Of a stretch of 23,038 bases of DNA, positions 135 to 15,190 are shown piece after piece. A program made the position numbers and the translations under genes. The first letter of the stretch is position 1, and the number at the start of each line of letters is the position of its first letter. The stretch is from Candidatus Latescibacterota bacterium (GTDB lineage: Bacteria > JAAXHH01 > JABIQT01): assembly GCA_018667995.1 (NCBI GenBank), contig JABIQT010000743.1:1-23038 (forward strand). The letters run 5' to 3'. Below the pieces are notes generated by a model that did not search any database, was not told where the DNA came from, and saw only the letters and a list, made by a program, of their open reading frames with translations.

Positions 135-977
135 TTGTCGTATAAACTGATTGCAATAGACATAGACGGTACACTGCTCAACGATGAAAAGCAGGTCACA
201 CCTCGCACACGGGCAGCAATCTCGGACGCCATGTCCGCAGGCGTATATGTCACCCTCTGTACGGGCCGCGGCATCTTGACTTCGGACCGTATCAGACATC
301 TGATACCGGAACTTAACGCCCCTCTGATTCTCAACGGCGGAGCACTGATTTCTGACAGACGACGAGGTAGGTTTCTTTACGTTCGCAATCTTAAGCATCG
401 GATCGCACACGAGGCTGTAACTGAGCTTCGTAGGCTAGACTGCAATCCCATTGTCTATGCGCCCTTGCCGGAAAGCCAACACTTTTACTATGATACCATC
501 GATTCCTCCAATGAGGCCTTTTCAGAGTACGTGGCTAAGAACGAAGGAAGGGCACATCTGGTACCCGACGTTGCGAGATCCATACAAGCTAATCCCGCGA
601 TGGTCGCTGTGACAGACCTGGTGGCGCGCATAAAGGATCTTGAACCCATCTTCAATGCCCGCTTAACCGGGACGACCGTAACGCTCGAAGTGAGCCCCAT
701 AGACAGGGCCTATTGCCATGTTACGCTCACGCCGCACGGAGTATCCAAGGGCAGCGGCCTCCGGACACTGGCCTCGATAATGGGTATCCCCATATCAGAG
801 ACACTTGCTCTTGGAGATAATCTGAATGATCTGGACATGATGACGCAGGCGGGCATGGGCGTTGCTATGGCCAATGCGACACCGGAAACCAAGCAAAAGG
901 CTGACTACGTTACCGCGTCAAACAATGACGACGGAGTCGCGCATGCCATCGAACGATTTGTTCTCGGGGAGATCTGA
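135..977 (+). CDS. Cof-type HAD-superfamily phosphatase (first of a tandem pair)
   Basis: This is a 280-aa cytosolic HAD hydrolase of the Cof/IIB type, a group that usually removes phosphate from sugar phosphates or other small metabolites. Motif I is IAIDIDGTLL, with nucleophile Asp9 and acid/base Asp11. Motif II is LCTGR with Thr43. Motif III is Lys205 in GVSKGSGL, and motif IV is GDNLNDLDM with Asp228 and Asp232. The cap domain lies between motifs II and III. The start is a TTG at 135, preceded by AGGAG at 125-129; it places motif I about eight residues from the N terminus, as usual in the family. The end overlaps the start region of a paralogous gene in another frame. Substrate cannot be told from sequence; the arabinosidase and other HAD genes nearby suggest sugar phosphates, which is inference. 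Confidence 0.9.
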   Translation: MSYKLIAIDIDGTLLNDEKQVTPRTRAAISDAMSAGVYVTLCTGRGILTSDRIRHLIPELNAPLILNGGALISDRRRGRFLYVRNLKHRIAHEAVTELRRLDCNPIVYAPLPESQHFYYDTIDSSNEAFSEYVAKNEGRAHLVPDVARSIQANPAMVAVTDLVARIKDLEPIFNARLTGTTVTLEVSPIDRAYCHVTLTPHGVSKGSGLRTLASIMGIPISETLALGDNLNDLDMMTQAGMGVAMANATPETKQKADYVTASNNDDGVAHAIERFVLGEI

Positions 978-1809
978 CCTGAATTATCGGCTCATAGCTA
1001 TCGATATTGACGGAACGCTGCTCACGAGTGATCGAGTCGTGACGCAAAGGACTGATCACGCCATAAACAGCGCCATTGAGAACGGAGTATATGTCTATCT
1101 GTGCACTGGTCGCAGCCTGAACTCAGGTGCAGAGATAGCGGGCGGCGTCCACGGAAACACAGGGCTCGTTTTTCACAGTGGTGCCCTAATCCTGAGACAT
1201 CTCAACGGCCCAGTCTTACGGGCCATTAATCTGCCGTTGGAACCAGCCCGAGAGCTCATTACATTCTTCAAAGCCGAGGGCCATGACCCTCTGGTTTATG
1301 ATCCCGTGCCTGAAAGTCGGCAATTTCTGTTTGAGGCCGAACGAAGCCCGAACGAATGGCGCAGGCGTTACATCGAAGGTAGCAAAGCAAGGGCACTTGA
1401 GGTACCTGATCTGGACATAGCTGTCACCAAGGACCCCGCACAGGTAGGGGTCGCGGGATCAGGAGAAGAGATGGAACGGCTGCAGACACATCTGTCCGTC
1501 ACATGGCCAGATGTAGGTACCATTCTTTCGCAGAGCACTCTCGTCAGCGATTATTGGTTTCTTGAGGCTGTACCACGTGAAGTCTCCAAGAGCCAGGCCC
1601 TGGCGTTTCTGGGACAAATGTACGGCATCGACTCCTCGGAGATGATAGCGATAGGTGACAACTACAACGACCTGGATATGATAGAATTTGCAGGTCTCGG
1701 TGTAGCAATGAAAAATGCGCCAAGCGATATTCAGAGAGCGGCAGATTTCGTAGCGCCTACCAATGATGATGAGGGAGTGGCCTGCATCATCGAACGATTT
1801 CTTCTCTAA
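943..1809 (+). CDS. Cof-type HAD-superfamily phosphatase (second of a tandem pair)
   Basis: This is a paralogue of the preceding gene with the same motif order: IAIDIDGTLL, LCTGRS, a lysine in EVSKSQAL, and GDNYNDLDM near the C terminus. Both copies end in DDEGVA/DDGVA followed by an IERF motif, so they arose by duplication. Two starts are plausible. ATG at 943 has GGAG six bases upstream and gives 288 aa, overlapping the first gene by 35 bp. CTG at 979 has GGGGAG at 966-971 and gives 276 aa, beginning at exactly the residue that aligns with the TTG start of the paralogue (NYRLIAIDIDG against SYKLIAIDIDG). The CTG reading is biologically attractive but rare, so the ATG is given here. The motif II to III cap region is the most diverged part, which suggests different substrates. 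Confidence 0.88.
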   Translation: MPSNDLFSGRSDLNYRLIAIDIDGTLLTSDRVVTQRTDHAINSAIENGVYVYLCTGRSLNSGAEIAGGVHGNTGLVFHSGALILRHLNGPVLRAINLPLEPARELITFFKAEGHDPLVYDPVPESRQFLFEAERSPNEWRRRYIEGSKARALEVPDLDIAVTKDPAQVGVAGSGEEMERLQTHLSVTWPDVGTILSQSTLVSDYWFLEAVPREVSKSQALAFLGQMYGIDSSEMIAIGDNYNDLDMIEFAGLGVAMKNAPSDIQRAADFVAPTNDDEGVACIIERFLL

Positions 1810-4769: not shown

Positions 4770-5597
4770 CTAAACGTCAAAGAGATACTCGGTGAGCTGC
4801 CGCCAGGCTTGGAATTCCGGAATAATGATATCCGCCCCGGCTTCAATAAGACGAGTTCGTTTCCAGGCATCAATTCCCGACCGCCTCGCCTCATCGGAGG
4901 CTACACCGATGGAAATGCCTCCTACTCTACGTCCCTCTTCGATTTCCACGTAGCCGTCGCCTACTACAAGTAGTTCCGCACCGGATAGGCCGTGCGTCGT
5001 CATGATCTCATTCAGTAACATCTGCTTGGAGAAATCCTCATGCTTATCGAGGGCTCCGTAAATTCCGCCATCAAAATAGTGCGACAGGCCAAGGGCGGCC
5101 ACTTCGTCCTGTACGTAATTCAGATCTGTACCGCTGGCCAGAAATAAGGTCACATTGCGAGACTGCAAGGCCTTCAACATTTGATCAGCATAGGGGACCA
5201 TGTACGTTTTCGGATCGACAGATCCGTCTTTCAGCCCCATCACGCGGCTCTCTATCCGCTCCCAAAGCCTCTCATGGTATTGATGCTTGTATGCCAGTGG
5301 TTCCTCGGGATGACCACCCCGTTTCGCCACCTCTTCCGCCAATCTCATCATCTGATATATAGTCTGTTTACCTGTCAAGCGACTCACGAATTCCTTCACC
5401 ACTTCTGTCAGTTTCTCCTCAGGTTCCTTCGTTCCCGTCGCGACCAGGATGTTGACCATCATCGGGATCATTATGTCTTGCCAGCCTTCTCGGATCAGCG
5501 ATATGGTACCATCGAAATCGAAGACGGCAAAACGAATGTCTCCCTTAGTGATCTGCGGATTGATAATCTCAATCTCAGCGGCGTGTAATCCATTCAT
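4770..5597 (-). CDS. HAD-superfamily hydrolase (phosphoglucomutase/phosphatase-like), coupled to upstream gene
   Basis: The 275-aa product is a HAD hydrolase with a helical cap between motifs I and II. Motif I is FAVFDFDGTIS (Asp27, Asp29), motif II is LFLASGTD, a candidate motif III lysine lies in ALDKHEDFSKQ, and motif IV is VVGDGYVEIEEGR. A longer open frame extends to 5663, but the ATG at 5597 is preferred: it overlaps the stop of the upstream gene as ATGA and has AGGTGG about seven bases upstream on the minus strand. This arrangement implies translational coupling to the TIM-barrel protein before it, so the two probably act on one substrate. A role in sugar-phosphate metabolism is inference. 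The gene converges on the arabinofuranosidase with 5 bp between stops and no terminator hairpin. Confidence 0.85.
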   Translation of the reverse strand: MNGLHAAEIEIINPQITKGDIRFAVFDFDGTISLIREGWQDIMIPMMVNILVATGTKEPEEKLTEVVKEFVSRLTGKQTIYQMMRLAEEVAKRGGHPEEPLAYKHQYHERLWERIESRVMGLKDGSVDPKTYMVPYADQMLKALQSRNVTLFLASGTDLNYVQDEVAALGLSHYFDGGIYGALDKHEDFSKQMLLNEIMTTHGLSGAELLVVGDGYVEIEEGRRVGGISIGVASDEARRSGIDAWKRTRLIEAGADIIIPEFQAWRQLTEYLFDV

Positions 5598-7216
5598 GAT
5601 GCGCCACCTGCGAGTTCTTTGAGTGTGTCTGTATCCGACCCTGCCTCGAGAAACAGCGTCCAATCGGTATCAGCTTGCGCTGCGGACCGGTATAGATCTG
5701 TTCCTACGTAAAGCACGCCTCCCTTTCCATGACCGGTCAGGGTAATGGCTGGGCTACCGTCACCCCATCTTCCGAGGATTCGTACATCATCACGAAGAGT
5801 AGTAAGACGCGACCGGAACCAGGCGCTAGGAAGACTTGCTCCTTCGGAGAGTTGGCCAATGCTCACTCCTAGTAAGATCCTATCATCGTGCAGCATGGGT
5901 TCCTCATCTTCAATTCCAAACATCTGGCTCCTCGTCTCCGAGGGAAGCATCTGTTCGTCTAGAGCGCCGTCGTCACCTGAAGCGATGATCCACCCGCCAG
6001 ATTCCATGAATAGTCGCATCTGGTCAATGACGGGACCGGACACCGCCGGGCACGGCGAAATGTATAGAACCTTGCGCTTCTGAAGTCCTTTCTTTGCAAG
6101 TAGTTGAGTATCGGATACGTACGAGAGTGGCGCGATGCCCGCTGCACGTAAAGTCTCATTTACTACAAAGATGTCATCCATGGCCAATCGGTTTATGAAT
6201 CCATCATATGTCAGGAGACAGACGTGTGTAGCGAAGCTCTTTTCGACAGGATCGGTATCGGAGATATCGCGGCTGAGTGCGAGCATGGTCTTCCAATACT
6301 CAGGCCTGGTCTCTGCCAGGGGGGCGCCCCGTACCTGATATGGTTCCTTCCAACTGCCACCATCCCATCCCCGCCATCCGATACCCGTGATCCCCTGAAG
6401 GGCAACCTGTCGTGTCCAGTCCCGTAGGTCTCGTAATTCCGGACGGTATCGCGTGTTCTCCACGTGCGATCCGACCAGAAACCAAATCGGTTTGTCCACG
6501 AGGCCGCTTGCAACGCTTGCTGCAAAGCTCGGTAATGACTGCCTTTGCTTTGCATCTCCTATCCATTTTGGACCGGAATCTATCATGACGAAATCAAGGT
6601 GCTGTGCCGTATTCTGGTAATGTACCAAACTCTCAGTAGGGAACAGTCCATCAAGCTGAAAGCAGATGGTTGTTTTCAAACGCGAACGAGCCTTCTTGAT
6701 CACAGTGACCAGTTCTTGTGTATAGTCTGCATACTGTTCCATCTGCCACTTCTTTACGGCGTACTGATATCCATCGCCCGTGAGGTTGTCGGATTCAATC
6801 CGTCCTTCCAATTCAGCCGTTACCGTTTTCCATCGCTCAAAACTGGCATTGGCGCCTCCCGATGGCCCATCCTCAAGCATGAGCGCGTAAACGGCAGGAT
6901 GGTCTCCTAGCGCTTCCGCCACATGACGAATATAGTCGAGACGCCAACGGCGAGCATCCGGCAATATGTACAATTCACGCGGATTGCCCGGATTGATCAC
7001 ACATGCGACCTCATGAGCGTGGGCCGCATCCAGAAAACGGATCAACAGATCCTTCTGGGCATCCGTGGCCAGGATATTCTTGAGGTCGAAGCCTTCAGAG
7101 ACAATCAGATATCCAAAGCCATTGTTCTTAAGCTCCGATAGGTCAGATTCCCAACGATCGGGATTGTCCGTATGATAGTAGTGAGTGAACACCTGGTATT
7201 TGCGTTTTGAGAACAT
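5594..7216 (-). CDS. TIM-barrel glycoside-hydrolase-like protein of unknown specificity
   Basis: This 540-aa protein is not assigned to a named enzyme. Residues about 5-320 read as a (beta/alpha)8 barrel: FTHYYHTDNPDRW at the start, VACVINPG, AVYALMLEDGPSGG, TTICFQLDG, LDFVMIDSG, KPIWFLVGSH and GITGIGWRGWDGGSW are spaced like successive strands. Glu115 at the strand-4 position is the best candidate acid/base; no clear nucleophile glutamate is seen. Residues about 340-460 (KVLYISPCPAVSG, FMESGGWIIASGDDG) resemble the glutamine-amidotransferase-fold trimerisation domain of GH42 beta-galactosidases, and a short beta domain (GGVLYVGTDLYR) closes the protein. No signal peptide is present. ATG at 7216 has AGGA about six bases upstream. 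It lies 105 bp after the cytochrome gene and overlaps the HAD gene by 4 bp. Confidence 0.75.
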   Translation of the reverse strand: MFSKRKYQVFTHYYHTDNPDRWESDLSELKNNGFGYLIVSEGFDLKNILATDAQKDLLIRFLDAAHAHEVACVINPGNPRELYILPDARRWRLDYIRHVAEALGDHPAVYALMLEDGPSGGANASFERWKTVTAELEGRIESDNLTGDGYQYAVKKWQMEQYADYTQELVTVIKKARSRLKTTICFQLDGLFPTESLVHYQNTAQHLDFVMIDSGPKWIGDAKQRQSLPSFAASVASGLVDKPIWFLVGSHVENTRYRPELRDLRDWTRQVALQGITGIGWRGWDGGSWKEPYQVRGAPLAETRPEYWKTMLALSRDISDTDPVEKSFATHVCLLTYDGFINRLAMDDIFVVNETLRAAGIAPLSYVSDTQLLAKKGLQKRKVLYISPCPAVSGPVIDQMRLFMESGGWIIASGDDGALDEQMLPSETRSQMFGIEDEEPMLHDDRILLGVSIGQLSEGASLPSAWFRSRLTTLRDDVRILGRWGDGSPAITLTGHGKGGVLYVGTDLYRSAAQADTDWTLFLEAGSDTDTLKELAGGAS

Positions 7217-7321
7217 GTTTGTCCTGAGGTCTTATGTCTTTTCTGTATGCTGGAATAGCGATGTGCAGTCGCGCAATATACGTTGAACGGACGGGCATCA
7301 GTAGCGAAAAACCAGGAAAGA

Positions 7322-8635
7322 TCAGTGTTTAATCGATTCAAAAGCCGATTCGAATAGAAAGCCTGGGCTCTGAGCCGGGGTGTGGCATTCGATACATGTA
7401 ATCGCGGTGGGAGGATTTGGTATATCTTTCATCTCTGCATGTTGGTCCGAAACTCTATGACATACTTCGCACTGTACATCACCGAGCGCAGGTGTTGTCG
7501 CAAAATCAAAGTACCCAGATGGCTTTCCGTAGCCGGTGGTATGGCAAAACAGACACTCGGGCTCTTTCTCATTCCCAGCTTTGATCAATGTCTGCAGTGC
7601 ATGTGCGTGAGATGTAGTCTGCCACTGCTCAAATTGATCCTCATGGCAGGTCCTGCACGTCCGAGCCCCGCGATAAGTGCTTCCGGTCGGATTCTGGTCT
7701 TGGGCCCCGACAACTCCGTCTATCAGTTCGTTCCTGTAGTCTTCCAGCATGGATAGTACGATTTGATCGTCGGCCATAGACTCGAGCAGAGGCTCAAGCC
7801 AACCTCTGTAACTGACAATCTCATGGTTGTTGTCCAACTCGAGGTCAAGGCGGCCAACCCGGGCTCCGTTATTTCCGGCCTGTACCAGCAACACACCGTT
7901 CTCTAGCAAAGGCTCGAAAAGGGGTCGCCCGCTAAAACTCCCCACGAGCACATCAATACTCGGGAAGCGACGTGCAATGGTTCGATTGTGGGACTGGGAG
8001 GCATGAGAAAGAACCACGATCAGATCGCTGACCTCACGTACATCAGGGAGCAACCGGTCCAAAGCCTCAATTGTTGCCCCAATGCCAACAGCACTCTTTC
8101 GATTCGGTTTCATCAAAGCAAATGCTGCCGGATCTCCGACTCCAATAATCCCGATTCGGGTTTCCCCTCGGTTCAAAACCCGATACCCCGGTCCGAGTGG
8201 GGTATCAGCGGCTGTATCCGAAAGGTTTGCCGACACGACAGGAATGCCGTACTCATCCATCGCATTACGTAGAAACGGAATGCCATCGACCAGATCGTTG
8301 TCACCGATGCCCACCGCGTCATATGCCAGGTATTCCATCATTCTGAAGAGGGCACGATGCTTGACTGTATCTGGACTCCAACCCATCATGTCCCCGGCGT
8401 CCAATGCCAACACATTGGGGTGTGCCATGCGGACATCGTTGAAATATGTGGAACGCTTCGGCAAACCGCCGAAGGGATTCCCAGGTCAGTCACATGCCTC
8501 CAGCTGACCATTGGTATCACTGGTGTAGAGTATGACCAGCGACTCTGATGACTCCTGACCACGGGCAAGTTGTGTCTCAACTTCCATAGTGGCAAGAAAC
8601 AGCATCAGTACTGCGATCATTCTAAGCGGTTTCAT
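7322..8635 (-). CDS. Exported UshA-like metallophosphatase-fold tetraheme cytochrome; probable selenoprotein with in-frame TGA
   Basis: From ATG 8635 (GAGG about four bases upstream) the frame gives 437 residues if the TGA at 8486-8488 is read as selenocysteine at position 50. The N terminus MKPLRMIAVLMLFLAT is a signal peptide, so the protein is periplasmic or outside. Residues about 33-300 follow the UshA/5'-nucleotidase metallophosphatase fold: TSDTNGQLEACD-Sec-PGN, LALDAGDMMGW and VVLSHAS. Several metal ligands are altered: Asn42 in place of His, GDND at 111-114 in place of GNHE/D, and GSFSG in place of GHxH. The C-terminal part carries four heme-c motifs: Cys327-RT-Cys330-His, Cys361-LF-Cys364-His, Cys389-EV-Cys392-His and Cys414-IE-Cys417-His. 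Relatives, from memory, include a family named UshA-like (seleno)protein. It starts 19 bp after tamA. If Sec is not used, the gene is broken or starts at TTG 8464 without export signal. Confidence 0.85.
8456..8488 (-). promoter_or_regulatory. Candidate bacterial SECIS element with its UGA codon
   Basis: On the minus strand the TGA (8488-8486) is followed by 11 nt and then a perfect 7-bp stem, CTTCGGC (8474-8468) and GCCGAAG (8462-8456), closing the five-base loop GGTTT. The loop begins 18 nt after the TGA, inside the 16-37 nt range known for bacterial SECIS elements, and has G at its first two positions followed by U, as those elements require for SelB binding. A lower helix GGAA (8481-8478) with TTCC (8453-8450) can extend the structure across a small internal loop. 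There is no T tract after it and it lies inside a coding frame, so it is not a terminator. Folding energy was not computed. Confidence 0.72.
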
Positions 8636-8654
8636 ATTTCCTCGCAAAGATACC

Positions 8655-10487
8655 TCAAAATGCCTGTCCCAGGCCCAGATGAAAGAAGGTACGATCGTAT
8701 AGATCCGTCTTCACTTCTCCCTTCCTGTTTCTGTGATAGCCAATATCCCCTCGAATCAAGCCTATGGGAGACATCACCCGCAGACCTCCGCCGTATCCGA
8801 TCCTTATGTCGGCGAATGATAGTGCTGCGACCGTGTTCGACACACCACCTAAATCGACAAACCCCGCCAGTCCAACGTACTTTAATTGAAGTCGGATCTC
8901 GTTCTGTGAACTGAAGGCAAAGGCTCCTCCGTCCGGAAATCCGATTTGATCTATCCCAAATCCACGTACCGACTTGTCACCTCCCAGAAACAGCCTTCTA
9001 TCCAAGGGCACCAGACCGTTATTCAGGGCACGTACATAACCCAGTGAGATGGACGTGGCAAAATCGGGAAATCCACGAATCGGAAGGTATTTCCTGACAC
9101 TGCCGTTGATCGCGAATAGCGAATTTCGATTGGCCGACGAACTACCCAGCAAGGGGCTTGCCAAATTCGCCTGTACCAGGCTATAGAATCCGGTTGTCGT
9201 GTTTAGAATATCGTCACGGGTATCGTATATCACCACCTGAGTAAGCCCCCCTTCACGCCTACTCGTCAGACTGTCTGCCACAGATCCGGCTAGAAGCACC
9301 TGCCTTAGGGAATCACTCACATCATTGATGGAAATCTGCTTTATAGAGTAGCTGGTCTGTGATCGGAATTTCCTCAGAAGACCGCGCCCTAGAGTTATTG
9401 ATGTGCCGATTTCCCGGCTCTTGTGGCTGCCGACTCTTACCTGGCGTTCAAAAAATCCCCTCAAGGTAGCGCTATTTCTTGTGCGCAAAATATAGGGTTG
9501 CGTTATTCCAGCTGCGACCTGCCATAGTAACTTGCTGGCTTGGCCATTCGCTCCAACCGTAATGCCTCTCCCAAGCCAATTTTTCTGCGTTACATCGACA
9601 CTTCCCCGCAGCAGCTCAAGGGAGGCATAGCCCCCACCAAAACTGACTTCCCAGCTTGGCAACTCGATCACGCTTACAAGGAGATCTCGCGTGGTCGAAT
9701 CAGTATCACTGCGAAGAGGCTCCAGCCGAACACTTCGGAACAGGCCTGTCTGGAATAACTGCGTCTGACTTCTGACCAATCTTGCATTGTCGTACATCTG
9801 ACCCGGGCGAATCGCCAGTTCCCTCCTTACCACTTCCGGCCGTGTTTTCCGCAGGCCGCGAATTTGTACCTCACCAACCCTGATGGGTTCGCCTTCCGAT
9901 ATAAAGAAATTCACTGTTACGGTATGTCGGATATCATCAAAGACGTTTTCCGCGTCGATTCGGGCATCCAGAAGAGCGTTCTGATCCGCCAGGTTCTGGA
10001 TCGCCCGACGGTCTGCCGCTACAAACAGCCTAAAAAATGGCTGACCGATCCGAGTAAGTAGCGCTCGTTTGACCCGCGCCTCAGGGATGTATTTGCTCCC
10101 TATTATATTGATCTGGCTGACCGTGTATCGGGGGCCTTCGACGATAACTATTCTAATTGCCACCTTTCCATCGGGCCGATTTTCCTGGAACGGACGAACA
10201 CGTGCCTGCCAAAAACCACTGTTAATGTAGAAATTCTCAATGGCGTCACGATCGCCACGTAGTGTCGCCGCGTTCAGTTTGTTCTTCCTGAACAGGCCAC
10301 CCGATTTCGTCAGCATGAGACCCAGGATTCGGTCGGTTCCAATCTGCTCATTTCCCTCTACAACAATGCTGCCGACAGTCGGACCGGTCTGTGCATCAGC
10401 GGCGCGGAAGAAGGTGAAAATGAGGAGAACAGAAAGCCCGAGCCTCAGGAAAATCTTTTCACAGGTTTTGGAAGGGAGTGTTATCAC
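8655..10487 (-). CDS. tamA: TamA-like Omp85 family outer-membrane assembly protein
   Basis: The 610-aa protein is an Omp85 beta-barrel insertase. A signal peptide (LGLSVLLIFTFFRAADAQ) is followed by three POTRA domains from about residues 33 to 265; the first begins VGSIVVEGNEQI and the second YTVSQINIIGSKYI. A 16-strand barrel fills the rest. The loop-6 motif VRGFG near residue 510 is diagnostic, and the last residue is phenylalanine, as in the beta-signal of outer-membrane proteins. Three POTRAs and about 600 aa fit TamA rather than the five-POTRA BamA. The start is GTG at 10487, with no clear RBS and 32 bp after tamB, so the exact N terminus is uncertain. Together with TamB it likely spans the envelope for outer-membrane protein or lipid transport. 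Confidence 0.88.
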   Translation of the reverse strand: MITLPSKTCEKIFLRLGLSVLLIFTFFRAADAQTGPTVGSIVVEGNEQIGTDRILGLMLTKSGGLFRKNKLNAATLRGDRDAIENFYINSGFWQARVRPFQENRPDGKVAIRIVIVEGPRYTVSQINIIGSKYIPEARVKRALLTRIGQPFFRLFVAADRRAIQNLADQNALLDARIDAENVFDDIRHTVTVNFFISEGEPIRVGEVQIRGLRKTRPEVVRRELAIRPGQMYDNARLVRSQTQLFQTGLFRSVRLEPLRSDTDSTTRDLLVSVIELPSWEVSFGGGYASLELLRGSVDVTQKNWLGRGITVGANGQASKLLWQVAAGITQPYILRTRNSATLRGFFERQVRVGSHKSREIGTSITLGRGLLRKFRSQTSYSIKQISINDVSDSLRQVLLAGSVADSLTSRREGGLTQVVIYDTRDDILNTTTGFYSLVQANLASPLLGSSSANRNSLFAINGSVRKYLPIRGFPDFATSISLGYVRALNNGLVPLDRRLFLGGDKSVRGFGIDQIGFPDGGAFAFSSQNEIRLQLKYVGLAGFVDLGGVSNTVAALSFADIRIGYGGGLRVMSPIGLIRGDIGYHRNRKGEVKTDLYDRTFFHLGLGQAF

Positions 10488-10519
10488 TATTTAGCGTATT
10501 CATATGGGTCGGACGAAGA

Positions 10520-13500
10520 TTAGCGAAATCGAAACTTGAGCTTCAAGTCCATGCCGTTCTGAGGACGCTCACCTATCTGATCGGTGAAGGTCTCTATGAA
10601 CAGGAAATTTGACAACTGATAGCCCACGCGAAGCTGATATTCTGACGAGTCAAACAGTCGAGTATAGGTAACACGGGTGCGCCGATTCACCCATTTACTT
10701 ACAGTAATCTGTGGTGCTGAACCCGCCTCGGTATTGTTGTTCAAGACATCGCCTTCGATTCGGACCTCATCAAGCCTAAGCAGTTTCTCCGCCTGACTTC
10801 CTGTAGCCATCAACAGAGCCCGATTTCCAATACCTGTGAAGGTCTCTGTATCGGCCTTCATCCCTGGTAGGCCGAAGGTCAGCAAAGAAACGACCTGCGG
10901 TCCAAACAGAGCGTTCTGATTGCGGAATTCGACGCGGCCCTCCTCGGTCGGTGTGGCAACTAATTCCAAATTCGGCTGTAGGGCTCTGCCAGACAGGTTT
11001 AGCGCAACGTCGTACTCACCACCATAGATATCTCTTACCCGGCTTGCCTGGGCCCGCATGGTGACTTCGGGATTGGTCTGCTCCAGTGGATAGTCAATCA
11101 ACGAAGTGAAGCTCTCGAGTGGAGTCCTGTTGAGAAACTCGATACGCCCTGTCTCCACCTCGAACTTTGTATCAAGATACTCTATAGTGCCATTGTCAAG
11201 TGTAGCGGCGTTCCCGGTAATGACAGGATTCTGCGCCGTACCACTAAACGCTATGCCGCCTTCTATTTCGAGATCCGCCAGTGCATTTCTGATGCGCAGC
11301 CGAGGAATATCGATCTCGACGTCCAGCACTATATTCTCAAGTAGCGGATCAGGCGCGGCTTGTGGTCTGACCACATCTCCCGTACCAAGGATGATCTCGC
11401 CAAGATTCAGGGGATGAGTGATAATTCCTGTGGCAGACAACGAGGTGCCACTAAGCTGCCCACCCCTTCGATCACCTGTCAACGACAGGGATCCGTCGGC
11501 AACAAGTTTTGACGAACCGATACGTTCGATATTCGCCTTGTTCAAAGTGGCATGGACCTCGTAACTACTGAGCCCGAAATTCTCCAAAACCATACGACTG
11601 AAAGCGTAAATGCTGCCCTTACCCGCTTCCAACTCCACCGGCTGTAACGAAAATTCATCACCATCGACCCTAAACTCGAGTCTCGAAGCACGAAGGGGTG
11701 GGCTAAAATCCCTTCCCTTTATCGAAGCGTCTTCAATGAGGATCTCCCCCACAGACCGAGGTGCAAATGGCGTCCCCCCCACGGTAAGCTGTACATCGGC
11801 TCTTCCCTTGATCTGCTCGATATCATACAAGATGCCCGATAGGAAGGACAAATCGAGATCCTCACCCTCCACGGTGATAGCCATATTGTCCATATCTGCT
11901 GTACCATCGGCCCGGTCGGGATCGAACGGTATCGTACCATATGCGACCAATGTTCTGTCTTTGAACCAGGTCTGAAAATCATGGATAATGAGGTCGCCAT
12001 ATTCGTAGACAACTCGACTATCGATACTATCCACTGCCGCCTCGTTGAATTTGAGCCCTACAAGTTTTATGCTTGCATCCCAACTTTTTGCGGCTCCCGT
12101 TCCTGATATCTCAAGATTGCTGTTTAGGGATCCGGACACAGCCAGGTCCTGCCCCATCAACGCCTGGAGCGCTTCCAAAGAGAAATCTTGCGTCTCTACT
12201 AAAAAATCCGATTCCTCTGCCGCTCCGGCTTTTGTTTGAAATGCGATACGCCCCCCCGCGTCCAAGGTCCCTAGCCCTACAGATGTTTGGTTCAAACGAC
12301 GGAGCGATATTCGGGCCGGATCCAGGTCCGCATATGCCGAATTGAATCGTACCATCAGGGAATCCTCGTTCACGAGTTCATTCTGAAGACCAAATAGCCG
12401 AAGGGAATCCAGTGAAATTGTGCCAGCCAGGTCCTCTGGCCGAGCGACGGGACCGTTAACTGTCACATGACCGTTGATCGTACCATCGAGATCCATAGGA
12501 ATGGAGGGGAAAAAGTTGCGGAGTGGGGCGACGGAGAGGTGGTCCATATCAAGGGAGGCTGTGAATTCTCGATCACCCGTATCTATTTCAGTCCCGCCCC
12601 AGCTCAGATCAATTGGATATGCAATACTGGCGCTAGCCGAGCCAAGGGGCGTACTTAGCGATAGCGCCGGGACTCGAAATTCCTGCTCGTCGTAGTTCAT
12701 CGAAAGTGAAACTGTACCGAGTTGATTTACTTGTCCTTCATTGCTGTACTGCATATCGGCGGTGGAGAACAGGCCATTCAGTAAGGGAGACTCTGGTGAA
12801 CCTGTCAGCGAGAAAAACCCATCCGCGGTGCCTGTTACGTTTCCACGTGGCAGAAGAAACGGTGAAAGAAAATCAATTTGAACACCCTCGAATAGAGCCT
12901 CAACATCGAGTAATCCCTCCGGCTCGAGACTTGCAACACCGTTGAGCATGACATGGCCGAGATCTCCTATCAGCTCCAGCCGGTCGATGGTGACAAGTTG
13001 GCGATCCAACTTCAATGTCGCGGGCGAAGCGAAGTAAATCTCCTGATCATCCATTGCCATGATGAGAGAATCCAACGCAACTGTGATCGTAGAAAGATCA
13101 GGATACTCGGCAAAACCAACGGCATGGAGTTTCCCCGTGAAGCGACCCGTGTGTCGCTCTATTTTTCGTTCCGCCAATATGGCAAGAAGCGGGGAGAGAT
13201 TCGCCCGTTTCACGTCCAGTCTGATGTCAAATGGGTAGCTATCATCCAGCGTGATGAGTCCGTCTGATATCACAGAAAAATCCGGTTTAACGAGTGTAAA
13301 ACTTAGATCCTTGTCTTCAAGCCGAAGGGCTACGCTGGTATTGCCGAGATTCTCACCTCGCAAGGTAAAATCCCTCAGCAGACCCTCCCCACGGATGACG
13401 GGATGCCTAAGGCTACCTTCTATTCTGCCCTGTAGATCAAGGTGAGCGTCAAGTCCCAAGTCGTCCTGTGTATTTACGTAGTCCCTAAGAGTGAGATCTG

Positions 13501-15190
13501 CCATATCGATCCGACCGGATATCCCCAGGTCACCCGCCAGATCAGCTTCCAAAGACAGATGGATCTTGGTTGTATCCAGATAGGCATCTAACCGTCCAAT
13601 TCTATCCCTGTCTATGGCACCGGTTACCATTAGCGTTCCGAGCGTGAGGCCCGCATAGCCGAGATCAGATATTTGTCCGTCGAACCAAACTGAGGGCCGT
13701 CCTACGTCACCGTCAACCAACATGGTGAACTCGGCCAGGCCCTCCGGTGCCTCTCCGCCAAGAAGGCTACCGAGATTACTTGCATCGGGTATGAACAGGT
13801 CCGCCTTCAAGTCCACAGCGCCATTCAGAGTTAGGTTGCCACGAGCGGATAAAGCTCCGACTGAGGATTCTGCGCCCAGGATGACTTTTCCATTATCATA
13901 GCTGGCCTTTGCGGTAAAGTCATTGAAAGCATGGTCAGCGATCATCCATTGTTCACCGCTCAGAGCAACACGCCCCTCCAATTCAGGACTGTCCCAACCC
14001 GAACCGGAGATATCCAGTGCTGCCACCATAGTGCCCGACAGAGACGAATCCTCACCGAATAGTATCGTCGGAAGTGTTTCCAGGTTTAGCGTCGATGGGG
14101 CTAGATGCAATTTGTAACGATGTAGTCCAGCTGACATGTCCAGAACGGCATCCCCGCCTATTCGACCAGCCTCCGAATCGCCCTGGTAGTGTTCGAAATT
14201 CAGTACGCCATCTTCAAATGTTAGACCAAGAGATGCCGAAGAGATGTATCCAATTCCCGTGTGCATACCAGGTGATTCCAACGAGGCTGAAATCGCAGGC
14301 TTTTCGAGGGAATTCTCCATGGTTCCAGTGACATGAAAGGGGCCCTGTAGCGAACCTTCTATTCCTATCAGCCGGGCGATCGCCCCCACATCTCCGTCAC
14401 CATTGATATCAAGCGAAATCGTCCGCCGTTGAATCGACGAAAGCTCTCCGTTCACCTCAAAGGTGAGCTCCGGTCCAGAGGCGGCCTGGAAGGTCATATT
14501 TGAAAGCAGCAACCGGTCGCCCTTGCGCTTAAATTCCGTATGCGCATGTGACACCGAGTCCTGCAAACCATTGATCAAGAATGCTACAGCACCGGACTCT
14601 ATCGTTCCACCGATGTGTTCCGTATTCTTCAATCGACTGCCGAGAGAAATGTCCCGGGCATCGATCTCAATGACGTTGTTCGGATCCCTGGTATCCAGAT
14701 ATCTGAACTGCCCGCGCCTGACCTGGAGATCAGGTATCATGATCTTACGCGGAGGACCTGGCGCGCCCGAAGATTCGTGATCCATACCGAACAGGACGCC
14801 CATAGAATCCCAGCTTCTTGGACCAACTCCCTGATTATAGAATACCCGAAGACCGTCCACGGTCACGCACGACACCACGGGATCACTGCCCAGCAAACCG
14901 AACGGATCCAAGACCAGTTCGCCTTCCCGGGCTCCCACTACTTCGTACCCTCCCAGCGAATCGGGCAAGGTCATAGAGAGATCGTAGACTCGCATCGAAC
15001 GCCAGAGGTTTCCCTCAAGCCGCCCAATAGAAACATTTCCATTCAGATACTTGTTGCCGGTCCATTCAACGCCCTGCCGGAGCCATTCCAGACCACGTGT
15101 CGTGCTCAAGCCCACAACCAGAACACCGGCGAGCACAGCCGTCCAGAAAACAAGAAAACTGAATAGGAAGATTAAACGTCGAATGAGCAT
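10520..15190 (-). CDS. tamB: TamB, translocation and assembly module inner-membrane-anchored protein
   Basis: The 1556-aa protein has one N-terminal membrane anchor (LIFLFSFLVFWTAVLAGVLVVGL, residues about 6-28) and then a very long run of short amphipathic beta-strands, the repeat pattern of AsmA/TamB bridge proteins. The DUF490/TamB domain fills about the last 350 residues, with LDNGTIEYLDTKFEVETGRI, a stretch near NQNALFGPQVVSLLTFGLPG, and the C-terminal KWVNRRTRVTYTRLFDSSEY leading to a final FRFR. TamB proteins span the periplasm to a partner Omp85 protein and are implicated in phospholipid transport and outer-membrane protein biogenesis. The order tamB then tamA is the reverse of E. coli tamA-tamB. 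ATG at 15190 has no Shine-Dalgarno. As the first gene of the minus-strand operon it should be preceded by a promoter in the 815-bp gap. Confidence 0.9.
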   Translation of the reverse strand: MLIRRLIFLFSFLVFWTAVLAGVLVVGLSTTRGLEWLRQGVEWTGNKYLNGNVSIGRLEGNLWRSMRVYDLSMTLPDSLGGYEVVGAREGELVLDPFGLLGSDPVVSCVTVDGLRVFYNQGVGPRSWDSMGVLFGMDHESSGAPGPPRKIMIPDLQVRRGQFRYLDTRDPNNVIEIDARDISLGSRLKNTEHIGGTIESGAVAFLINGLQDSVSHAHTEFKRKGDRLLLSNMTFQAASGPELTFEVNGELSSIQRRTISLDINGDGDVGAIARLIGIEGSLQGPFHVTGTMENSLEKPAISASLESPGMHTGIGYISSASLGLTFEDGVLNFEHYQGDSEAGRIGGDAVLDMSAGLHRYKLHLAPSTLNLETLPTILFGEDSSLSGTMVAALDISGSGWDSPELEGRVALSGEQWMIADHAFNDFTAKASYDNGKVILGAESSVGALSARGNLTLNGAVDLKADLFIPDASNLGSLLGGEAPEGLAEFTMLVDGDVGRPSVWFDGQISDLGYAGLTLGTLMVTGAIDRDRIGRLDAYLDTTKIHLSLEADLAGDLGISGRIDMADLTLRDYVNTQDDLGLDAHLDLQGRIEGSLRHPVIRGEGLLRDFTLRGENLGNTSVALRLEDKDLSFTLVKPDFSVISDGLITLDDSYPFDIRLDVKRANLSPLLAILAERKIERHTGRFTGKLHAVGFAEYPDLSTITVALDSLIMAMDDQEIYFASPATLKLDRQLVTIDRLELIGDLGHVMLNGVASLEPEGLLDVEALFEGVQIDFLSPFLLPRGNVTGTADGFFSLTGSPESPLLNGLFSTADMQYSNEGQVNQLGTVSLSMNYDEQEFRVPALSLSTPLGSASASIAYPIDLSWGGTEIDTGDREFTASLDMDHLSVAPLRNFFPSIPMDLDGTINGHVTVNGPVARPEDLAGTISLDSLRLFGLQNELVNEDSLMVRFNSAYADLDPARISLRRLNQTSVGLGTLDAGGRIAFQTKAGAAEESDFLVETQDFSLEALQALMGQDLAVSGSLNSNLEISGTGAAKSWDASIKLVGLKFNEAAVDSIDSRVVYEYGDLIIHDFQTWFKDRTLVAYGTIPFDPDRADGTADMDNMAITVEGEDLDLSFLSGILYDIEQIKGRADVQLTVGGTPFAPRSVGEILIEDASIKGRDFSPPLRASRLEFRVDGDEFSLQPVELEAGKGSIYAFSRMVLENFGLSSYEVHATLNKANIERIGSSKLVADGSLSLTGDRRGGQLSGTSLSATGIITHPLNLGEIILGTGDVVRPQAAPDPLLENIVLDVEIDIPRLRIRNALADLEIEGGIAFSGTAQNPVITGNAATLDNGTIEYLDTKFEVETGRIEFLNRTPLESFTSLIDYPLEQTNPEVTMRAQASRVRDIYGGEYDVALNLSGRALQPNLELVATPTEEGRVEFRNQNALFGPQVVSLLTFGLPGMKADTETFTGIGNRALLMATGSQAEKLLRLDEVRIEGDVLNNNTEAGSAPQITVSKWVNRRTRVTYTRLFDSSEYQLRVGYQLSNFLFIETFTDQIGERPQNGMDLKLKFRFR

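Follow-up and report, generated by a model that had tools for sequence, protein, structure and literature searches.

The window, a stretch of 23,038 nucleotides from a Candidatus Latescibacterota draft genome (contig JABIQT010000743.1), carries on its minus strand a reading frame that runs from ATG 8635 to the stop codon TGA at 7322-7324 and contains a sole internal TGA at 8486-8488, its codon 50 (Table 1). Between the internal TGA and the stop there are 387 sense codons, the gene (7322-8635) shows no further stop or frameshift, and the junction around codon 50 reads EACD-U-PGNPFGGLPKR, which is protein-like on either side. An earlier note, made from the sequence alone, had proposed a frame from ATG 8635 with a TGA at codon 50 and 387 residues following it, and its coordinates and junction were reproduced. 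As it had also predicted, a gene caller using table 11 truncates the gene to a 380-aa open reading frame from TTG 8464 to 7322, with the loss of the signal peptide. Orthologues in three other genomes (G014, G001 and G015) all stop at the same His residue as the window protein; the codon at this shared end is TGA in the window gene, G014 and G001 and is not TGA in G015, and therefore the TGA at 7322-7324 is a real stop.

Table 1. Features of the locus and selA copies of the genome and its relatives
Feature	Coordinates	Strand	Basis or remark
CDS, predicted UshA-like selenoprotein, 437 residues, Sec50, TGA stop 7322-7324	7322..8635	-	frame, family profile, orthologues
Shine-Dalgarno-like GAGGAA ahead of ATG 8635, short spacing	8638..8643	-	by eye
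Probable Sec-type signal peptide MKPLRMIAVLMLFLATMEVETQLARGQ	8555..8635	-	by eye
UshA/5'-nucleotidase-like metallophosphatase-fold domain	7721..8548	-	profile, predicted model, Foldseek
Predicted Cys48-Asp49-Sec50 (CxU) motif, TGA = 8486-8488	8486..8494	-	frame, alignments
Predicted SECIS hairpin, 7-bp stem CUUCGGC/GCCGAAG, apical loop GGUUU at 8463-8467	8456..8474	-	folding, stem test
Cytochrome c554-type tetraheme domain, heme motifs 7643-7657, 7541-7555, 7457-7471, 7382-7396	7325..7678	-	Pfam, alignment
Gene of an Omp85/POTRA outer-membrane protein, upstream at 19 nt from the ATG; neighbour kept at two orthologous loci	8655..10487	-	
Downstream gene of a 540-aa protein without Pfam match; neighbour kept at two orthologous loci	5594..7216	-	
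Short SelA, own genome	L020:1512-2705		397 aa
Long SelA, own genome	L021:1170-2540	-	
SelA copies in relatives	L072-L084, L085, L087-L089, L164-L173		

The gene lies in the order TamB, Omp85/POTRA, UshA-like selenoprotein candidate and 540-aa protein (5594-15190), and the last three are also grouped in G014 and G001 (L025, L026). Elsewhere in the window (135-1809), two adjoining genes each have the HAD-type motif LIAIDIDGTLL near the start, an apparent tandem duplication that was noticed by eye.

The read-through protein scores 277.3 bits with the NCBIfam profile NF041198 (UshA_like_PCGU, "UshA-like (seleno)protein"), just above the cut-off of 275, with matches in both its N-terminal and its C-terminal part. 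This profile is the publicly annotated family that had been named in the earlier note. The truncated 380-aa product reaches 235 bits, which is under the cut-off, and thus the family assignment depends on read-through of the TGA. The three orthologues score 289.1, 264.4 and 262.8 bits, two of them just under 275, and the branch of the window protein is borderline for the profile, straddling its cut-off. The feature described for NF041198, a CxU motif after the first strand followed by GGL or GGV, is present as C48-D-U50-PGNPF-GGL. The literal PCGU of the name is absent (A-C-D-U in the window; V-C-T-U, S-C-D-U and A-C-G-U in the orthologues), but it is part of the short name only, and the curated criterion of membership is the profile score. 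The tetraheme part is represented by a second profile stretch (345-518) and by four CXXCH motifs at residues 327-331, 361-365, 389-393 and 414-418, and the Pfam cytochrome c554 domain (PF13435) matches with 67 bits against a cut-off of 20.8. The signal-peptide-like N terminus, the profile matches and the four CXXCH motifs all agree with an exported UshA-like and tetraheme architecture, as had been suggested at the outset.

UshA-like (COG0737) CxU selenoproteins were reported in 2008 from Global Ocean Sampling data, with 76 Sec forms and 92 Cys homologues (PMC2398784); they appear again in PMC9312934 and are listed with NF041198 in PMC13188914. The window protein shares with this family the place of the CxU motif, the UshA-like N-terminal domain, the four-heme C-terminal part and the TGA with an adjoining hairpin. 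It differs from the usual members in having A-C-D-U for P-C-G-U and a PGNPF spacer, equal in length to the usual KSNQL-type one, in lacking the part of the profile at about 271-344, and in belonging to a diverged branch whose records are labelled Latescibacterota or Zixiibacteriota. The relation to UshA-like (seleno)protein family 2 (NF049981) is distant and is confined to the first strand and the active-site loop (46.6 bits, cut-off 140); that family has a CxxU motif, unlike the CxU of the window (PMC13188914). With UshA and CD73 5'-nucleotidases and with SoxB the protein shares the fold of the N-terminal domain, but the two-metal ligands are partly lost and a cytochrome replaces the C-terminal 5'-nucleotidase domain; the scores lie far below the cut-offs of the UshA profile NF007109 (42.8 versus 600 bits) and of the SoxB thiosulfohydrolase profile TIGR04486 (60.3 versus 550 bits). 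Likewise, the C-terminal domain resembles cytochrome c554 (Nitrosomonas CycA; PF13435), but the match to the free cytochrome concerns the domain only (33.8 bits versus a cut-off of 400). No report on selenoproteins of this lineage was found in the literature by title or abstract. The window protein is thus a new member of an already named family, the UshA-like seleno-cytochromes.

A search of the 16 genomes of the phylum in the collection yielded the three orthologues, which are 36-43% identical, have one in-frame TGA each at the same residue, and align with the window protein as C-x-U-PGNPFGGLP(K/R)R. The codon at the homologous site was read at 41 sites and was TGA at 33 (the window, the three orthologues and 29 further family loci), Cys at six (two of these rows being the same site), Arg (CGA) at one and Ala at one, the last in a member of another subfamily. 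An alignment of the motif region, which had been proposed as a check, thus places TGA or Cys at position 50 in 39 of 41 sites, and the view that the TGA replaces a conserved Cys is borne out. A clean Cys form, QLEACGCPGNPFGG, was found in a more distant protein from an Armatimonadota-labelled bin. In a second phylum, that of a Deltaproteobacteria-labelled genome (G016), members above the NF041198 cut-off occur in 69 of 395 genomes, and most of these members, among the matches listed, have one in-frame TGA.

Two unusual members of the family should be mentioned. At L150 neither the Cys nor the Sec codon survives: the site reads SGR, with CGA in place of TGA, and a gene that is otherwise intact has apparently lost its CxU motif. 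At L121:1385-5269 a protein of about 1295 residues has its UshA-like part twice, each time as a Cys form, and ends in a tetraheme region. By eye, the segment between the two copies resembles thioredoxin; the genome has many more family matches without in-frame stops.

In all four orthologous genes, counting that of the window, CUUCGGC-GGYYU-GCCGARG comes after the TGA and forms a 7-bp stem, the loop of which begins 21 nt past the first base of the TGA. Most of the other TGA forms also show a hairpin at this distance, its loop starting with GG. As the stem overlies the conserved GGL codons, a position-specific test was used, in which each sequence was compared with 2000 synonymous recodings, drawn from its own codon usage, at the exact fixed position. 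A stem of at least 5 bp was observed at the fixed place in 30 of 33 TGA forms versus 3.0 expected, these sequences being related and not independent trials, and in none of six Cys forms versus 0.5 expected. Taken by itself, the window hairpin does not stand out from its synonymous recodings (P 0.105), and the case rests on the whole related set, which argues that the hairpin is a SECIS element selected beyond the requirements of the protein sequence. Less specific measures gave no such signal: two of the first three strands folded no better than dinucleotide shuffles in plain folding energy, the mean z of folding energy against synonymous recoding reached only -0.60 for the TGA forms and -0.33 for the Cys forms, no compensatory pair was seen among the four orthologues alone, and Rfam gave nothing at gathering score across the whole window.

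The draft genome of the organism (6.06 Mb in 1165 contigs, 85% complete, 4% contaminated) encodes SelA (486 bits) and SelD (367 bits; 373 versus a cut-off of 125 with TIGR00476). Its selD gene (L110:1396-2442, minus strand, contig C1058) itself has an in-frame TGA near the start, with the motif TCGU followed by a hairpin with a GGUA loop, and therefore a second gene of this genome needs selenocysteine. A TGA is likewise present in selD of G015 but in none of the other relatives listed. Neither selB nor tRNA-Sec was found in this 85% complete assembly. The best tRNA-Sec candidates were rejected as tRNA-Ser and tRNA-Leu, and the best match to the selB model was rejected as a CysN-like GTPase adjoining a CysD-like gene. 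Among the 15 other genomes of the phylum, 13 have a tRNA-Sec of about 70 bits and 14 have a selB above the cut-off, and ARAGORN assigned three of the tRNAs (from G001, G004 and G015) to tRNA-SeC with the anticodon UCA. In relatives the two genes adjoin (for example G004:C14:65114-67036 and 67077-67170), so that, with a draft of this completeness, one missing contig would explain both absences. The search for selA, selB, selC and selD suggested in the earlier note was thus answered in part: selA and selD are present in the genome itself, and selB and selC were not found there, though they occur in relatives.

These gaps bear on one objection, namely that the TGA at codon 50 is a true stop, in a pseudogene or by a sequencing error, and that at most the 380-aa product from TTG 8464 is made. 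The lack of selB and tRNA-Sec in the own assembly and the short open reading frame of standard gene calling would fit, but three diverged orthologues and 29 further loci share the TGA at this residue, the frame is otherwise free of stops and frameshifts, the selected hairpin accompanies TGA forms only, and the same genome has a second TGA gene, selD. Moreover, the short product would be devoid of a signal peptide, yet the attachment of c-type hemes requires export. A true stop is accordingly very improbable. A genome-wide reassignment of TGA in the lineage, for example to Trp or Gly, would also account for read-through in this gene, but it is hardly credible: homologous sites are nearly all TGA or Cys and never Trp or Gly, the genes of the window, G014 and G001 themselves end in TGA, the neighbouring genes are normal under table 11, and selA, selB, selD and tRNA-Sec(UCA) occur in the phylum. 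The conserved TGA, the Cys homologues, the selected SECIS and the sel genes of the phylum all favour the proposal of the earlier note, and the TGA at 8486-8488 with very high probability encodes selenocysteine. SelB and tRNA-Sec would decode it with the aid of the hairpin, which starts 11 nt past the TGA.

Most of the N-terminal domain is well modelled, and Foldseek relates the predicted structure to E. coli UshA, CD73 and SoxB (E of about 1e-21 to 5e-19). The model is of low confidence at residues 45-54, the motif loop, and at 381-437, and poor for most of the heme domain, and thus the distance between CxU and the hemes cannot be judged from it. The CxU motif lies on the loop directly after the strand bearing Asp40 and Asn42 and is therefore at the rim of the same pocket. 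Aligned to 5'-nucleotidases of known structure, the positions of the two-metal ligands are occupied by Asp40, Asn42, Asp82, Asp112, His211 and Phe234; the usual ligands of CD73 and UshA we take to be His at 42, Asn at 112 and His at 234. The full set (DxH, GD, GNH, H, GH) is thus broken by Asn42 for His, Asp112 for Asn and Phe234 for His, and the orthologues have Asn at 40 and 42 and keep the last His. It should be noted that the columns of the wide alignment past residue 57 are misaligned for longer members, and the ligands were taken from the alignments with the orthologues, the Cys form and the 5'-nucleotidases. As half of the metal ligands are replaced, a classical two-metal hydrolase appears unlikely in this branch.

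A selenoprotein that is still a metal-dependent hydrolase, of the 5'-nucleotidase or the SoxB-like thiosulfohydrolase type, with Cys48 and Sec50 as metal ligands or as a structural pair, would be in keeping with the clear relation to UshA, CD73 and SoxB in fold and sequence, with the cysteines of 5'-nucleotidases that align to the CxU loop, and with the retention of Asp40, Asp82 and His211 in the window and of the last His in the orthologues. We nevertheless consider it unlikely, since DxH has Asn42 in the place of its His not only in the window but also in the orthologues and the Cys form, GNH has Asp for its Asn, Phe234 of the window stands where the last His would be, and the fusion to a tetraheme cytochrome suits electron transfer better. 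In addition, selenocysteine is rare outside redox enzymes.

The position of the CxU motif at the pocket rim and the fusion to a tetraheme cytochrome are what one would expect of an exported redox enzyme. The predicted Cys-x-Sec pair sits in the loop after the first beta strand of the 5'-nucleotidase/SoxB-like domain, beside the former two-metal site, and the pocket would most likely carry out selenol/thiol redox chemistry and not the classical hydrolysis of phosphate esters. Electrons might pass between the CxU pair, or a substrate bound there, and the four C-terminal c-type hemes. As SoxB is among the closest profiles, a first guess at the substrate would be a sulfur or selenium oxyanion or a sulfur-bound group. 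A redox role of the CxU pair coupled to the hemes seems somewhat favoured, and the explanation as a whole, an exported UshA_like_PCGU selenoprotein with Sec50 and a redox role together with the hemes, is judged to be likely with good confidence.

A further peculiarity concerns the synthesis of selenocysteine. Both a short and a long SelA are encoded in 14 of the 16 genomes of the phylum; G015 has the long SelA only, and in G014 there is just a fragment, at the end of a contig. The strongest SelA match begins at profile position 58-72 in 14 genomes. The short SelA of the own genome aligns to E. coli SelA only from residue 78 and to A. aeolicus SelA only from residue 71, and the SelA N-terminal domain (Pfam PF12390) gave no match in it or in the short SelA of G001. 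All 14 short copies have SGDK(L/M)xGGPQ, with SRGQLVEIGG and MRA(L/F)RxDK intact. The second SelA is weaker (about 155-350 bits) and of full length: TIGR00474 aligns from position 2-3 in all four copies compared (own genome, G015, G001 and G005), and PF12390, with a cut-off of 22 bits, scores 25.7 in the own genome, 47.7 in G015 and 19.6, just below, in G001, and is not detectable in G005. None of the 15 long copies covering the site has the PLP lysine, which is either replaced by Gly or absent (GGGL, DGL, SEF), and their arginine motif is altered. Judged by these motifs, the two types are complementary, the short SelA keeping the catalytic PLP lysine and lacking the tRNA-Sec-binding N-terminal domain, and the long SelA showing the reverse.

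SelA without the N-terminal domain has been described in organisms that do not use selenocysteine or that also have a full-length SelA paralogue (PMC4607533). The present case departs from this pattern in that the full-length paralogue is devoid of the catalytic lysine, and neither the short nor the long paralogue matches the usual SelA homodecamer. Among 151 sampled genomes of another phylum, 72 have SelA above the cut-off, mostly of full length, and none shows another complete copy with an E value of 1e-40 or better. Nothing on a two-SelA arrangement was found in the literature by title, with subscription journals thinly covered. The simplest reading of the pair would be a hetero-oligomeric Sec synthase. 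Alternatively, the short SelA alone might be functional with a changed tRNA recognition, or the long paralogue might have another job. For the window protein itself, the chances are about even that its selenocysteine is made by such a split, hetero-oligomeric Sec synthase, in which short and long SelA together would restore one enzyme.

The finding adds a lineage in which an uncharacterised family of seleno-cytochromes is Sec-decoded, and both the signal peptide and the active-site motif would be lost to any annotation pipeline that takes TGA 8486-8488 as the stop. The division of SelA is more novel than the UshA-like selenoprotein itself: the paired paralogues make the idea of a hetero-oligomeric Sec synthase directly testable, which is more important for the field than a new family member.
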